Assembly (NCBI RefSeq): GCF_000018605.1
Contig: NC_010003.1
Location: 1,774,501-1,838,500 of the forward strand
Length of the DNA: 64,000 bases
Origin: Petrotoga mobilis SJ95
Lineage (GTDB): Bacteria > Thermotogota > Thermotogae > Petrotogales > Petrotogaceae
Direction of reading: 5' to 3'
The notes under the pieces are model-generated. The model was not told where the DNA came from, did no database searches, and saw only the letters and a program-made list of their open reading frames with translations. This document shows, piece after piece, positions 38,094 to 44,017 of the stretch. How positions within the stretch are numbered: the first letter of the stretch is position 1; every line of letters starts with the position of its first letter. A program made the position numbers and the translations under genes.

Positions 38094-38774
38094 CTAAATT
38101 CGATTCCTAGCATAAGTGAGGGTTCCAGGAATCTTGATTTTCTTTTCAATAAATCTGAATATTTCTCCAAAAATTGTGACCAACACAAAATATATGATAG
38201 CAGCAAATAGGTAAACTTGAAAGAATTCAAAGTTACGACTCGCTACAAACTTAGCTTGAGCCATTATTTCTGGCGCTCCAACGATATAAGAGAGAGAGGA
38301 ATACTTCAATAGGTATATAAATTCATTTGTCCAAGAAGGGATAAACCTTCTTAACGCTTGGGGTAATATGATCAATCTGATAGCTTGCCATTTTTTCATT
38401 CCTATTGATAAAGCTGCTTGCATTTGACCCGAACTTATCGATTGAATGGCACCTCTTAGATATTCGGCCTGATAAGCGGCAGAATTTAAAGAAAAAGCCA
38501 TTATTGAGGCTAATATTGGAGAAAGCCTAATTCCAATAACAGGTAAACTATAATATAGAATGAAAAGTTGAACAAGTAATGGTGTCCCCCTTATTATCTC
38601 GATAAAAACATAGCTTATATAATAGAATAATTTATTTCCATACGTTTTAGAAACTGCAAGTAAAACGCCCAAAAAGAATCCTATGACTATAGAAATTAAA
38701 GTTAAAAAAAGTGTAACCCATATACCTTCCACCATATAAACCCAGGAACTTCCAACGATTTCAAAAAAGCTCAT
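38094..38774 (-). CDS. Polar amino acid ABC transporter, permease
   Basis: A 226-residue inner-membrane permease of the His/Glu/Gln type, with the EAA loop signature in [27 protein letters not shown] and about five helices. It pairs with the second permease (39542-40213) to form the channel. Its start overlaps the ATPase stop by 4 nt. Last gene of the binding protein-permease-ATPase-permease operon. Substrate class from family; the exact amino acid is unknown. Confidence 0.92.
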
Positions 38775-39538
38775 GTATTTTCATCCTTTCCGTACAACTG
38801 CGATAATTTATTCAAAAACTCCTTAGTTCTATCTTTTTGAGGATTTTTGAACATCAATTCTGGGGGACCTTTTTCAACAATCACGCCTTTTTCCATAAAT
38901 ATGATCTCATCTGCAACAGCCCTTGCAAATCCCATTTCATGTGTAACACACACCATAGTCATGCCACTTTTTGCAAGATCAATCATGACGTTCAGAACCT
39001 CTCCTATTAGCTCTGGATCCAAAGCAGAAGTTGGCTCATCAAACAGAATTAATTTGGGATTCATAGCTAGAGATCTAGCGATAGCGACTCTTTGCTTTTG
39101 CCCACCGGAAAGCTGAGCAGGATAAAGGTCTGATTTATCCTTCAATCCAACTCGTTCTAATTCTTTTAATGCAATTTCCGTTGCTTGAGATTTTTCAATC
39201 TTTTTCACTTTAGTCAAACCAATTCTAACGTTTTCAAGCACAGTTAAGTGATCAAATAAGTTAAAGTGCTGAAATACAAAACCTATTTCCTGCCTAATTT
39301 TGTGAATATTCTTTGAAGATAATACTTCATCTCCTTCGAGATATATTCTTCCTGAATCAGGTTCTACCAGTCTATTTATACACATTAAAAGGGTACTCTT
39401 TCCTGTTCCACTCGGACCTATTATTACCTTTGTTTCTCCTCTTTTAACTTCAAATGTTATTCCTTTGAGTATTTCTGCTCCATTATAACTCTTATGAAGA
39501 TCTTCCACTTTTAATATTATATCTTTCTCTTCTTTCAT
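38771..39538 (-). CDS. Polar amino acid ABC transporter, ATPase (GlnQ type)
   Basis: A 255-residue ATPase driving uptake. Walker [12 protein letters not shown]-loop [17 protein letters not shown], signature [12 protein letters not shown], Walker [15 protein letters not shown] and switch His in VTHEMGFA are intact. The [14 protein letters not shown] segment is typical of GlnQ/HisP. It lies 3 nt downstream of the first permease and overlaps the second by 4 nt. Confidence 0.94.
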
Positions 39539-39541
39539 TTA

Positions 39542-40213
39542 TTAAACGCTCCTTGTTTCGTATCCTGGGATAGTAAGCTTTTTTTCGATCATGCCAAATC
39601 CCCTACTTAAACTAAAAGTTAGGACAAAGTAGATAGCTCCACAAATTAGATAAACTATCAAAGGTCTATTAGTTACAGATATAATATAAGTGCCTTGCCT
39701 AAGTAATTCAACCACACCTAAGGCATAAGCAACTGATGTATCTTTTAGGACTACTGATGCCTCATTGATCCAACCTGATAAGGCGATTCTTATTGCCTGG
39801 GGGAAGATAATGTAGATGAAAGTCTGGATTTTGTTCATTCCAATTGAATAAGCAGCATCTAGTTGCCCCTTTGATATGGATGAAATTGCACCTCTAAAAA
39901 TTTGTGATTGATAAGCTGAGCTTATCAAACCTAATCCAATTATTGATGCAATCAAGGGATCTAATCTTATTCCGATGGCTGGTAAACCGTAAAAAATTAA
40001 AAAAAGAACAACTATCAAAGGGATACTTCTAAAAACTCGTTCGTAGATTAAAAAAATTAACTGTAAGAATTTGTTACCATACAATTGACCAAAAGAAATT
40101 ATAACTCCAACAACAAATCCTAAGATCAAACTAAAAAAGGTTAATTCAAGTGTCACAAGTGTTCCTTTTAATAAATAGGGTAATGAATTTATAATCACTT
40201 GAATGTCTTCCAA
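39542..40213 (-). CDS. Polar amino acid ABC transporter, permease
   Basis: A 223-residue permease, homologous in layout to the 38094 gene, with EAA loop AAYSIGMNKIQTFIYIIFPQAIRIAL. TTG start at 40213 with AAGGAAGGATGA upstream. It follows the binding-protein gene after an intergenic hairpin. Confidence 0.91.
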   Translation of the reverse strand: MEDIQVIINSLPYLLKGTLVTLELTFFSLILGFVVGVIISFGQLYGNKFLQLIFLIYERVFRSIPLIVVLFLIFYGLPAIGIRLDPLIASIIGLGLISSAYQSQIFRGAISSISKGQLDAAYSIGMNKIQTFIYIIFPQAIRIALSGWINEASVVLKDTSVAYALGVVELLRQGTYIISVTNRPLIVYLICGAIYFVLTFSLSRGFGMIEKKLTIPGYETRSV

Positions 40214-40244
40214 GTATCATCCTTCCTTTTTAATTTAAATATAA

Positions 40245-40263
40245 AAGGGGGTGAAGCCCCCTT
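40245..40263 (-). terminator. Intercistronic hairpin after the binding-protein gene
   Basis: AAGGGGG-CTTCA-CCCCCTT on the minus strand, followed by TTATA. It probably acts as a partial terminator or RNA-stabilising hairpin that keeps binding-protein mRNA above permease mRNA. Confidence 0.7.
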
Positions 40264-40290
40264 ATGTTTTTCTTTTAGAAAATTAGAACA

Positions 40291-41022
40291 TCACTTAAAA
40301 TACTTTTCTATTAGATCATCCATTTTTCCAGACTCTTGTAACTTTGTTATACCTTCGTTCAACATATTCAATAAATCCTCATTGCCTGGTGCAACAGCCA
40401 TACCATAATTTTCGTTAGTCTTAATGATTCCTACAATCTCCACGGGATCTGTCTTTGTGAATCTTTCAGCCACAGGATTATCGAGCACTATCACATCGAT
40501 ATTTTTGTTAACTAAGTCACGAACAGCAAAGTTGAATGTGTCGTACCTGATTAGATTAGTTTTTGGCAAGAAACCAGCGTCTATTAAATTTTCTGTTACC
40601 CAAAGATCGCCCGTAGTACCCGTTTGAACTCCGATTTTTGGCTTCCTAAGAAGAATGGTTAGATTGGTATCTTCACCTTTTCTTACCATAATACTTTGAT
40701 CAGCACTATAATATGGGATTGTAAAATCGACTACTTTCTCTCTTTCTTCAGTTATAGTCATTCCAGCGACAATAATATCTATATTTCCGGTCATTAAAGA
40801 AGGTATGAGAGAGTCAAAGCTAATATCTCTTATTTCAACGTCAAATCCATACATTTTTCCGATTTCCCTTATTAAATCCATATCAAATCCGACAAACTCT
40901 CCACCTTCAACGTACTCAAAAGGTGGGAAAGATGCTTCTGTACCGACAACATAAGTAACTGAGAAAGCTGAAAACACAAAAGAAATCAAGATCGCAGAAA
41001 CTAAAAAGGCTTTTTTCAACAT
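40291..41022 (-). CDS. Amino acid ABC transporter, periplasmic binding protein
   Basis: A 243-residue SBP_bac_3 family protein. A signal peptide (MLKKAFLVSAILISFVFSAFS) is followed by the mature start VTYVVGTEASFPPFEYVEGG. FVGFDMDLIREIG, AGMTITEEREKVVDFTIPY and the lobe-2 GVQTGTTGD loop match lysine/arginine/glutamine binders. No lipobox is seen. ATG 41022 is preferred, as AGGAGGTG would be too close to the ATG at 41028. First gene of the operon. Confidence 0.93.
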   Translation of the reverse strand: MLKKAFLVSAILISFVFSAFSVTYVVGTEASFPPFEYVEGGEFVGFDMDLIREIGKMYGFDVEIRDISFDSLIPSLMTGNIDIIVAGMTITEEREKVVDFTIPYYSADQSIMVRKGEDTNLTILLRKPKIGVQTGTTGDLWVTENLIDAGFLPKTNLIRYDTFNFAVRDLVNKNIDVIVLDNPVAERFTKTDPVEIVGIIKTNENYGMAVAPGNEDLLNMLNEGITKLQESGKMDDLIEKYFK

Positions 41023-41128
41023 GTTCATACACCTCCTATCGGATTATCTACTTTTTTACTTACTTACAAAACATTAAAACCTTTGATTCCACGTTTTAAC
41101 TGTTAAACAGATTTTCTCAATATCAATC

Positions 41129-41198: not shown

Positions 41199-41227
41199 TT
41201 GACAAATATTTTTTTTTATAGTATAAT
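41199..41227 (+). promoter_or_regulatory. Consensus promoter of the asnA leader
   Basis: TTGACA (41199-41204), 17-bp spacer, TATAAT (41222-41227). It predicts a transcript start near 41234 and a leader of about 240 nt before asnA. Confidence 0.9.
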
Positions 41228-41279
41228 TAACTAAATTTGAAAATCTATTAAGATATTAATTAAATTTGTTTAGGAGAAA

Positions 41280-41357
41280 ATGGCTATGAAAATATTAAAA
41301 TTATTATCAAGTTCTAATAAAGTAAATAATAATAATAACAATATACAGCGTCGGTGA
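41280..41357 (+). CDS. Asn-rich leader peptide of the asnA attenuator
   Basis: A 25-codon ORF, Shine-Dalgarno TAGGAG 5-6 nt before the ATG. It reads MAMKILKLLSSSNKV, then six consecutive Asn codons (AAT AAT AAT AAT AAC AAT, 41325-41342), then IQRR and stop TGA (41355-41357). A seventh Asn codon is at 41316. A second ATG at 41286 is an alternative start. It lies between a consensus promoter and a terminator upstream of asparagine synthetase, and its last codons form one arm of the competing RNA hairpins. Its role would be to report Asn-tRNA supply by ribosome stalling, as TrpL does for Trp. Confidence 0.87.
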   Translation: MAMKILKLLSSSNKVNNNNNNIQRR

Positions 41358-41418
41358 TTACGCTGGACATTGTTATTTTGAAAATTACCGACGCAGAAAA
41401 AATAGCGTCGGTTTTTTT
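41346..41418 (+). promoter_or_regulatory. Attenuator: protector, antiterminator and terminator hairpins
   Basis: Three mutually exclusive structures are readable. The protector is CAGCGT (41346-41351) with ACGCTG (41360-41365). The antiterminator is GCGTCGGTGATT (41348-41359) with AATTACCGACGC (41383-41394), 12 bp including one G-U. The terminator is ACCGACGC (41387-41394) with GCGTCGGT (41405-41412), 8 bp followed by seven T. The word GCGTCGGT occurs twice, once in the leader-peptide end and once in the terminator, so both compete for the same partner. A ribosome at the stop codon would cover the first copy and allow termination; stalling at the Asn codons would free it. Confidence 0.88.
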
Positions 41419-41430
41419 ATTTGTATTTTA

Positions 41431-41450
41431 AAAGACGATATACCGTCTTT
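41431..41450 (+). promoter_or_regulatory. Hairpin just before the asnA ribosome-binding site
   Basis: AAAGACG-ATATAC-CGTCTTT, 7-bp stem ending 14 nt before the GGAGGG Shine-Dalgarno. Its role is unknown; possibly RNA stability or separation of leader and gene. Confidence 0.45.
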
Positions 41451-41475
41451 AAAAAACACTACAGGAGGGAAAATT

Positions 41476-42435
41476 ATGGCAGAAGTAGAGAAGCAGGATA
41501 GAAGAGTGGATTCTGTGGAGCTAGTAAAAACTTATTTGGAGGACGAGACTTACAGTGACGCGCTTTTAGTTCAATCAGAGATACTGAGATTATCGAGGGA
41601 ATTTCTTGCAGAGAAGGGTTTTGTTGAAATTCTACCAGTGATTGTCTCTACGATCACCGATCCTTTAAATCACGACGTTTTTGAAGCACAAATTGATTAT
41701 TACGGTAACAAATATTACGTTACTAAATCTATGATTCTGCAAAAACAAGTTAGTGTTTTGATTCATGATAAGATATTTTCCTTTTCGCCAAATTTAAGGT
41801 TGGAAACAGCAGAAAAATATTCTTCTGGTAGACACTTGATTGATTTTGTTCAACTAGATATAGAAGCTAAAGAAACTAAAAGAGAAGAGATTATGGATTT
41901 GATGGAAGATTTAATAATTTATGTACTAAAAGGTATCTTGACGAAATATTCTGGTATAATAGAAAAGTATCACCCAAATTTGACTGTTCCTAAAAAGCCT
42001 TTTCAAAAGATAAGCGTAAAAAAGGCAAAAGAGCTTTACGGTGATGATTATGAAAAGATTTTATCTGAACGAGCTGAAGGGCCTGTGTGGTTAATTGATA
42101 TTCCGCTCTTGAACAGGGAGTTTTATGATAAACAAGATATGGATAATCCTGATGTATTGTTGGATTTTGACCTGATATATCCTGAGGGTCATGGGGAAGG
42201 CATATCTGGTGGCGAAAGAGAACACGAGTATGAGCAAATAGTGAAAAGAATCAAATTGAAAGGTAACGGGCTGGAAAGCTATGAAGATTATTTAAAATTG
42301 GCAAAAGAAGGGTTATTAAAACACTCAGCAGGATGTGGTATAGGTATAGAAAGATTCACTAAATACATATTAGATTTGGATCATGTTGAAAAAAGTAGAT
42401 TGTTTGCTAAAGCACCTGGAAAGTATACCATTTAG
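41476..42435 (+). CDS. asnA: Asparagine synthetase A, archaeal (AsnRS-related) type
   Basis: A 319-residue class II synthetase-fold enzyme that makes asparagine from aspartate, ammonia and ATP. It resembles the archaeal AS-AR of Pyrococcus, an aspartyl/asparaginyl-tRNA synthetase catalytic core lacking the anticodon-binding domain, rather than E. coli AsnA. Shared landmarks are ITDPL, KSMILQKQ, FSFSPNLRLE (motif 2 Arg R108), SSGRHLIDFVQLDIE, SGGEREHEYEQI and motif 3 GIGIERF (R293). ATG 41476 with GGAGGG upstream. It is preceded by an Asn leader-peptide attenuator, which supports Asn synthesis as its real job. A hairpin terminator follows. Confidence 0.88.
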   Translation: MAEVEKQDRRVDSVELVKTYLEDETYSDALLVQSEILRLSREFLAEKGFVEILPVIVSTITDPLNHDVFEAQIDYYGNKYYVTKSMILQKQVSVLIHDKIFSFSPNLRLETAEKYSSGRHLIDFVQLDIEAKETKREEIMDLMEDLIIYVLKGILTKYSGIIEKYHPNLTVPKKPFQKISVKKAKELYGDDYEKILSERAEGPVWLIDIPLLNREFYDKQDMDNPDVLLDFDLIYPEGHGEGISGGEREHEYEQIVKRIKLKGNGLESYEDYLKLAKEGLLKHSAGCGIGIERFTKYILDLDHVEKSRLFAKAPGKYTI

Positions 42436-42547: not shown

Positions 42548-44017
42548 ATGAATATTAAAAGGGCAATTATTTCAGTTTATGACAAAACTAATTTAGAGGA
42601 TTTAGCTAGTTTCTTATATCGCAATGGTGTCGAAATTATATGTACAGAAGGAACAAATAAATATTTACAAGAAAAGGGAATCCCTACTGTAAAAATGGCT
42701 GATTATATTGGATTTCCTGAAATTTTAGGAGGTCGTGTTAAAAGCATAGATCCAAAATTAGCCGGTGGCATTTTAGCCAAGTCTAACGATAAAAAGCATG
42801 AAGAAGATATGATTAATTACAATATAAAAAGGATAGATATGGTTGTGGGTAATTTTCCTACTTTTGAGGAAATTGCCAAAAAAACAAAGAATGAGGAAAC
42901 ACTTTTAGAAAATATCGATATTGGAGGCTATTCTCTTCTTAGAGCAGCAGCAAAAAACTATAAGGATGTTGTAGCATTGGCAGATCCAAAAGATTATCAA
43001 ACAGTTATTGATAATTTAGAGGATTGTGGCGATGTCCCCTTACAGTTAAGAAGAAAGTTGGCATTGAAAGTTTTCTTTTCTACTTCTAAGTACGATGCAA
43101 GTATTCATAAAATTTTTTCAGAACTATTTGCAGCTGAAAAGTTTGACCATGAATTTTTTGAAATATTGGGGAACTTAAGATATGGTTCTAATCCAATGCA
43201 AGAAGCGATTCTAATGAAATTTTTAGAAAAAGATACTTTTATCAACTATTTAGAAAATTTGACCTTTCACAAAAAACCTACTTTAAGGATGTTAAAAGAC
43301 ATAAAATTACTTTTTCATTTGGCGAGTTTGACAAACAATGAATTTTTGGGTTTTGCGAAAAAAGGAATTTTCGTATTTGGTTATTGTGCTCCTACTCAAG
43401 AAGAGAAAAAACAATTCATTAGAATTATTAAAGAACTTAAAGGTGGGATAGTTTATAGTGACGATCCAAATATAATTTTTGAACTGAAAGATTCAAAACA
43501 TGACGGAATGATGACTTCTTATAATCTTGAACAAAAAGAAGAGATAATTTCTTTTAAACCCATGGTTTTTAAGGTTAATAAGAAAGTTCTGAAACAAGAA
43601 GAAGAATATATTGTGGATAGTGATCTGGTCGTAAAGCAAAATTTCCAAGAGATTTCCTTGGATTTGTCTCCTTCAGAACAATTAGGATTTGAGGTCGCTA
43701 AAATTCATAAATCTGATACCGCTGTGTATGTTAAAAATAATCTCATTTGTTCTGGTAATCAATCTTGTTTGAACAGAGAAATCGCACTAAATGCACTCGA
43801 AAACACTTTGGAAAAGTTTGAAGTTCTTCCGAAGGAAGGGACAATTATATTTGATTCTCCTATAAATTCAGAGAAGATAACCGATATAATATTAAATTGG
43901 CAGGTTGAAAAGGTAATTGTTCCTCCAACCTTACCGGGATACGAAAAATATTTAAACGATTTAGAAGAAAAAGGAGTTACTTTGTTGGTAACACAGGGAA
44001 GGTATCATAGATATTAA
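42548..44017 (+). CDS. PurH-like protein with eroded catalytic motifs
   Basis: A 489-residue protein with the layout of PurH (IMP cyclohydrolase then AICAR formyltransferase): GGRVKSIDPKLAGGIL, NIDIGGYSLLRAAAKN, LRYGSNPMQ. In the cyclohydrolase part K65, D124 and K136 are kept, but the NLYPF tyrosine is missing (N102-F-P-T-F) and the TLHP His is Asp. In the transferase part the catalytic KHxxPCG reads FGYCAPTQ (277-284), and the FPFPD segment reads FDSPIN. Formyl transfer should therefore be lost and cyclisation is doubtful. It may be repurposed, perhaps as an AICAR/IMP-binding or structural protein. Expressed after asnA, possibly from its own promoter. Confidence 0.75.
   Translation: MNIKRAIISVYDKTNLEDLASFLYRNGVEIICTEGTNKYLQEKGIPTVKMADYIGFPEILGGRVKSIDPKLAGGILAKSNDKKHEEDMINYNIKRIDMVVGNFPTFEEIAKKTKNEETLLENIDIGGYSLLRAAAKNYKDVVALADPKDYQTVIDNLEDCGDVPLQLRRKLALKVFFSTSKYDASIHKIFSELFAAEKFDHEFFEILGNLRYGSNPMQEAILMKFLEKDTFINYLENLTFHKKPTLRMLKDIKLLFHLASLTNNEFLGFAKKGIFVFGYCAPTQEEKKQFIRIIKELKGGIVYSDDPNIIFELKDSKHDGMMTSYNLEQKEEIISFKPMVFKVNKKVLKQEEEYIVDSDLVVKQNFQEISLDLSPSEQLGFEVAKIHKSDTAVYVKNNLICSGNQSCLNREIALNALENTLEKFEVLPKEGTIIFDSPINSEKITDIILNWQVEKVIVPPTLPGYEKYLNDLEEKGVTLLVTQGRYHRY

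Follow-up and report, generated by a model that had tools for sequence, protein, structure and literature searches.

Leader peptides that control transcription by ribosome-mediated attenuation have been described for a limited number of amino acids and phyla. A 2013 survey lists the specificities His, Leu, Thr, Trp, Ile/Val and Phe (PMC3766115). According to a 2010 study, leader peptide systems were known just in Proteobacteria and Actinobacteria before the case that it reported from Firmicutes, and his leaders are found with hisS and hisZ in bacilli (PMC2965389). Leaders for Trp, Leu and Cys occur in Actinobacteria (PMC1262725), and a Cys upstream ORF precedes cysS in Rhodobacterales (PMC8632094). 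An earlier note on the DNA studied here remarked that no leader sensing Asn was known, and we found none described in the open-access literature; subscription journals lay mostly outside this search.

The asnA leader of Petrotoga mobilis SJ95 is very probably an attenuator of the classical kind, in which the translating ribosome reads the charging of tRNA(Asn) and thereby controls transcription. It was examined in a 64-kb stretch of genomic DNA, called the window below, and was compared with asnA upstream regions of other Thermotogota, other bacterial phyla and archaea.

Anatomy of the asnA leader

All elements of the leader lie on the forward strand of the window, and a sequence check reproduced every coordinate that the earlier note had assigned to them. 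The sigma-70-type promoter TTGACA-N17-TATAAT (41199..41227) has 12/12 consensus matches, and the same promoter is also present at the equivalent place in relatives, for example at loci L005-L008 and L014. A leader ORF encoding MAMKILKLLSSSNKVNNNNNNIQRR follows (41280..41357), with the Shine-Dalgarno sequence AGGAG at 41272..41276; most relatives have an SD-like motif 5' of the leader start as well. The ORF had been described as 25 codons long, counted from the ATG at 41280. While an ORF with a Shine-Dalgarno sequence is indeed present, the second ATG at 41286, giving 23 codons, is the likelier translation start, because it is located 9 nt after AGGAG, as against 3 nt for ATG 41280, and because the second start position is kept as ATG in close relatives. 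The first position is GTG in one close relative.

The putative sensor is a run of six consecutive Asn codons (AAT AAT AAT AAT AAC AAT, 41325..41342). This run is the only one of its kind in the window, and the number expected from shuffled sequences is 0. The TGA stop codon of the leader (41355-41357) is situated inside the antiterminator.

Three mutually overlapping structures can be formed by the RNA. In the MFE fold the 6-bp hairpin CAGCGT/ACGCTG (41346-41351/41360-41365) forms the inner part of a putative protector. The earlier note had given the protector as the hairpin at 41346-41365; the hairpin was recovered, but in the same fold the protector is longer and includes an outer (1:2) stem in which 41334-41342 pairs with 41369-41377. 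Since 41334-41342 consists of Asn codons, the regulatory codons belong to the 1:2 stem. The outer stem has 9/9 pairs in the window, and eight near relatives retain 7-9 of these pairs. The antiterminator, a 12-bp pairing of 41348-41359 with 41383-41394 (duplex -17.4 kcal/mol, z -6.7), is the MFE structure of a leader transcript that ends before the 3' arm of the terminator. The intrinsic terminator has the 8-bp stem ACCGACGC/GCGTCGGT (41387-41394/41405-41412) with a 10-nt loop and a T7 tract (41412-41418) located 57 nt upstream of asnA. Antiterminator and terminator, including the seven T, are thus present as first described. The fold of the complete window leader has an energy of -39.1 kcal/mol, compared to -25.5 in shuffles (z -4.2).

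A further small hairpin, AAAGACG-AUAUAC-CGUCUUU, occurs at 41431-41450, between the terminator and the asnA ribosome binding site, and a counterpart with an altered stem sequence forms in four congeners. This additional hairpin would fit a role of the RNA structures mainly in asnA translation or mRNA stability instead of transcription. The regulated hairpin, however, ends in T residues as intrinsic terminators typically do and leaves the asnA ribosome binding site uncovered, and we consider control mainly at these later levels highly improbable.

The controlled gene and its genomic context

The asnA gene (41476..42435, forward strand) encodes a 319-aa archaeal-type (AsnRS-like) asparagine synthetase. 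That the downstream gene makes asparagine, as the earlier note had it, is supported by a score of 455 bits against NF005054 (asparagine synthetase A; curated cut-off 309) and by the nearest PDB entries, 1nnh and 3p8t, both archaeal, AsnRS-related asparagine synthetase A. The protein aligns solely with the C-terminal part of AsnRS and is without the anticodon-binding domain. Enzymes of the archaeal-type family use ammonia as nitrogen donor.

The genome consists of one contig of 2,169,548 bases and contains one asnA copy and a gene for AsnRS, while a search for asnB gave no match above threshold. By sequence comparison, the asnA product is the sole asparagine synthetase found in this genome. With a sole Asn synthetase, and AsnRS charging tRNA(Asn) with free Asn, the level of charging would be a sensible signal.

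A polar amino acid ABC transporter (binding protein, permeases and ATPase) is encoded on the reverse strand at 38094-41028, divergent from asnA, and begins 171 nt from the asnA promoter. The gene at 42548-44017, 3' of asnA, matches PurH well under the curated cut-off and over the N-terminal half only; it probably encodes a diverged PurH-like protein.

Conservation in Thermotogota

The earlier note had proposed to look for a conserved Asn-codon run and covarying hairpins in related asnA leaders. Including the window, 47 Thermotogota asnA copies have readable upstream DNA. An ORF with Asn codons followed by a terminator is present in 47/47 of these regions, where three of the terminators have weak T tails and had to be assigned by hand. 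The lack of conservation in close relatives, one of the outcomes that by the earlier note would have refuted its proposal, was thus not observed. The leader ORFs have 17-36 codons, and runs of at least four Asn codons in a small ORF within 300 nt upstream occur at 33 loci, against 0.05 expected from dinucleotide shuffles. At seven of the 47 loci there are at most two consecutive Asn codons, which is a real weakness of the attenuator reading at those seven. Locus L010, considered as a leader-less exception, was rejected as such; its leader sits farther upstream behind inserted sequence. Upstream regions of asnB in Thermotogota contained no Asn leader in 15 readable loci.

Since the region is AT-rich and the Asn run looks like a triplet repeat, the leader might be regarded as a constitutive terminator preceded by a chance (AAT)n repeat. 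This explanation is refuted by the conservation of the codons at all 47 loci, across families of very different sequence. The codons are also mixed (AAC 50, AAT 171), no such run is expected by chance, and the antiterminator covaries as described below. The probability left for a chance repeat is practically nil.

Pairing and covariation of the competing stems

In 47/47 loci the 5' arm of the terminator has an alternative pairing partner, namely the end of the leader ORF. This antiterminator is the MFE structure of transcripts that end after the terminator 5' arm, again in 47/47 loci (mean z -3.64), and the pairing has p<=0.025 in 41/47. Duplex z values are mostly -4 to -7.5 in Petrotogaceae; outside this family a short downstream arm undervalued the pairing, which a longer segment corrected.

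Covariation was evaluated in an alignment of 19 Petrotogaceae leaders. For the antiterminator, 16 cells were changed on both sides compared to 5.0 in shuffles, with 0/500 shuffles as high, and the signal collapsed when the alignment was slid by one column. The terminator was paired in 97.9% of cells, with compensatory changes; here too 0/500 shuffles scored as high and the signal collapsed one column off. Such two-sided changes, lost on a one-column slide, indicate that the leader end and the terminator 5' arm change together. The covarying hairpins that the earlier note had hoped for are therefore seen in both stems, and its suggestion that leader end and terminator compete for one partner extends to the whole set of loci. 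The inner protector is paired in 85% of cells without compensatory change, and the outer protector stem is kept in nine close loci, with the window among them. In the other families the leader sequences are quite different, and a small hairpin with compensatory changes is found directly after the Asn codons.

Control of a terminator could also be exerted by a T-box or another riboswitch that binds tRNA or a metabolite directly, and T-boxes are known before asnS in a few Firmicutes (PMC2494555). However, no Rfam family, T-box included, matched the window region or 13 related loci, the T-box survey counted 0 T-boxes under Fusobacteria/Thermotogae (PMC2494555), and the leader is a translatable ORF, which argues against a riboswitch. 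We regard direct tRNA or metabolite binding as extremely unlikely.

Computed dependence of antiterminator pairing on ribosome position

The influence of a translating ribosome was modeled by placing its leading edge 13 nt beyond the first base of the A-site codon, using transcripts that end before the terminator 3' arm. This thermodynamic modeling, done at 37 °C although many of the source organisms are thermophiles, gave a mean antiterminator pairing of 0.83 when the ribosome occupied the start of the Asn run (maximum over its first five codons) and of 0.23 when it stood at the stop codon. In 47/47 loci, 13 nt or more separate the first codon of the run from the start of the antiterminator 5' arm. 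The earlier note had reasoned that a ribosome which finishes the peptide blocks antitermination and that one stalled at the first Asn codons leaves the arm free; the computed pairing agrees with this.

At equilibrium and with a complete terminator, the terminator is favored at almost every locus, also when the ribosome is stalled. Folding of this kind was thus uninformative as a switch test and was dropped, and the choice between the structures must be kinetic, made during transcription. An untranslated leader also antiterminates in the model that ends before the terminator 3' arm (mean 0.74), so that the contribution of the protector is a putative one. The protector and antiterminator of the window are nearly equal in energy (-15.0 vs -16.0).

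Proposed mechanism

Five features by which a ribosome-mediated attenuator is recognized are present at this locus: a leader ORF with ribosome binding site after a promoter, consecutive codons for the amino acid that asnA produces, a terminator, a competing antiterminator whose 5' arm is computed to be covered or free according to ribosome position, and conservation with covariation of the competing stems. From these observations we infer ribosome stalling, termination itself and the physiological signal as follows. With ample Asn-tRNA the ribosome would pass the six Asn codons, reach the TGA and cover the antiterminator 5' arm, so that the terminator forms and transcription ends near 41418. 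With too little Asn-tRNA, the ribosome would stall on the Asn run, thereby opening the 1:2 protector stem and freeing 41348-41359. While the terminator 3' arm is still to be transcribed, the latter segment could then pair with 41383-41394, which would prevent termination and allow transcription of asnA.

Further probable attenuators in Thermotogota

Two covariance models were built, model 1 from the Petrotogaceae leaders and model 2 from the leaders of other families. Model 1 detected another site in the P. mobilis genome (G000:C1:1972417-1972501; L166 / L181:3900-4088) and in four congeners. At this site five Asn codons are located at the 3' end of gltD, within the C-terminal tail of GltD, NNNNNKQRRLKTL. 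The tail consists of the Asn run and KQRRLKTL, and the match to the glutamate synthase small subunit model stops at residue 493/506. The same antiterminator and terminator come next, followed by amtB and a P-II gene (glnK). Within the family this amtB was found in five genomes, each of which has the arrangement. The GltD-tail site is possibly a new variant of the attenuator. With model 2, Asn leaders were found before the type I glutamine synthetase gene glnA in three Thermotogota genomes (L199, L200 and L201).

The two models also detected the same RNA layout with other codons. In family-mates of P. mobilis, a Thr-codon leader (TTTT) precedes thrS (L172/L182) and an Asp-codon leader (DDD) precedes a non-discriminating-type aspS (L173/L183); the Asp attenuator, too, may be undescribed. 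Elsewhere in Thermotogota, Met-codon leaders are found before metQ-like genes and a His-codon leader before a hisZ-like gene (L204, L205 and L207), the hisZ-like protein scoring far under the curated cut-off. The earlier note knew of no typical case in Thermotogota; judging by these Thr, Asp, Met and His examples, leader-peptide attenuators are not untypical of the phylum. At most of the amtB, glnA, thrS, aspS, metQ and hisZ-like sites, antiterminator pairing is computed while the ribosome occupies the run, and it decreases once the ribosome is at the stop codon.

Two more sites were noted. At L198 an Asn leader attenuator, DNNNNNRPGSVGYCFI, is located ~210 nt before the gene of a 589-aa protein without NCBIfam match, and at L171/L184 a leader with ICVMVIINSAGSRC and the same RNA layout precedes an ABC transporter ATPase.

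By itself, the terminator/antiterminator anatomy would suit any stalling signal, including general sensing of translation speed as in ermC or nascent-peptide arrest, with the Asn codons being incidental. The peptides 5' of the run, however, vary between genera, and the parts that recur are the Asn codons and codons constrained by the RNA. Furthermore, the codons follow the controlled gene, Asn with amtB and glnA, Thr with thrS, Asp with aspS, Met with metQ and His with the hisZ-like gene. This match of codon to gene is the strongest argument that the codons are read, and it makes a general stalling signal very unlikely.

Asn leaders in other phyla

Archaeal-type asnA genes from public genomes were also compared for leaders. 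No Asn-run leader was found before asnA in 31 archaeal loci. In bacteria, Asn leaders precede archaeal-type asnA in Caldisericota, Asn runs of at least three occur in 13/15 asnA loci of Aminicenantes/Acidobacteriota, and the asnA leaders of Bipolaricaulota have scattered Asn codons. Most Aminicenantes leaders end in NNN(N)VPF and the stop (L057, L062, L076, L086, L089, L092, L102, L108, L110 and others), with the stop codon in a hairpin such as GUCCCC-UUUUAA-GGGGAC and a pyrimidine-rich stretch behind it, which suggests a different architecture. Leaders of the Bipolaricaulota type are conserved as NNPFFxVHNPNASF or NNPSL...NAPxGANN before the stop (L079, L080, L081, L083, L084 and L088) and have a hairpin that lies at the stop codon or close to it. 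No intrinsic terminator was evident after the Aminicenantes or Bipolaricaulota asnA leaders examined. For mycobacterial cys leaders without terminators a Rho-dependent variant has been proposed (PMC1262725); that the Aminicenantes and Bipolaricaulota leaders would be Rho-dependent in the same way is only a guess.

Implications and comparison with known systems

The distribution of the leaders makes it probable that Thermotogota gauge their nitrogen status by tRNA(Asn) charging and control a small regulon accordingly. Its members would be asnA wherever a lineage has the gene, glnA in several lineages and, in the genus Petrotoga, amtB-glnK, for which the sensing codons would be those of a C-terminal tail added to GltD, encoded in the same operon, and not of a leader peptide. 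In at least three further phyla of bacteria, Asn leaders would likewise have emerged before archaeal-type asnA or spread to it; in two of these phyla no intrinsic terminator is evident. The regulon would tie the uptake of ammonia and the synthesis of glutamine to the supply of asparagine. The leaders would add asparagine to the amino acids read by ribosome-mediated attenuation and place this mode of control throughout a deep-branching, largely thermophilic phylum. T-boxes were not found in Thermotogota in the survey and the Rfam comparisons above, and leader peptides may be the main charging sensor of the phylum. The Asn, Thr, Asp, Met and His codons that occur naturally on comparable RNA scaffolds form an easily tested set of codon swaps.

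The mechanism itself is known; the asparagine specificity appears to be new, and attenuation in Thermotogota appears unreported in the open-access literature searched. As proposed for the asnA leader, T-boxes respond to tRNA charging and control a terminator before amino acid genes, but in a T-box the uncharged tRNA binds the RNA directly and there is no leader ORF, and the asnA region gave no T-box match. The leaders of bacilli, Actinobacteria and Rhodobacterales (PMC2965389, PMC1262725, PMC8632094) share with it the codon run, mostly the coupling to a terminator, and the control of aminoacyl-tRNA synthetase or biosynthetic genes. They concern other amino acids and phyla, and these papers mention no asparagine leader. 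The trp, his, thr, leu, ilv and phe leaders of Proteobacteria have in common with the asnA leader an ORF with codons for the product, the 2:3 and 3:4 stems, a 1:2 protector that is putative in asnA, and a biosynthetic gene downstream; the asnA leader differs in that it matches no Rfam leader family, belongs to Thermotogota and would sense asparagine.
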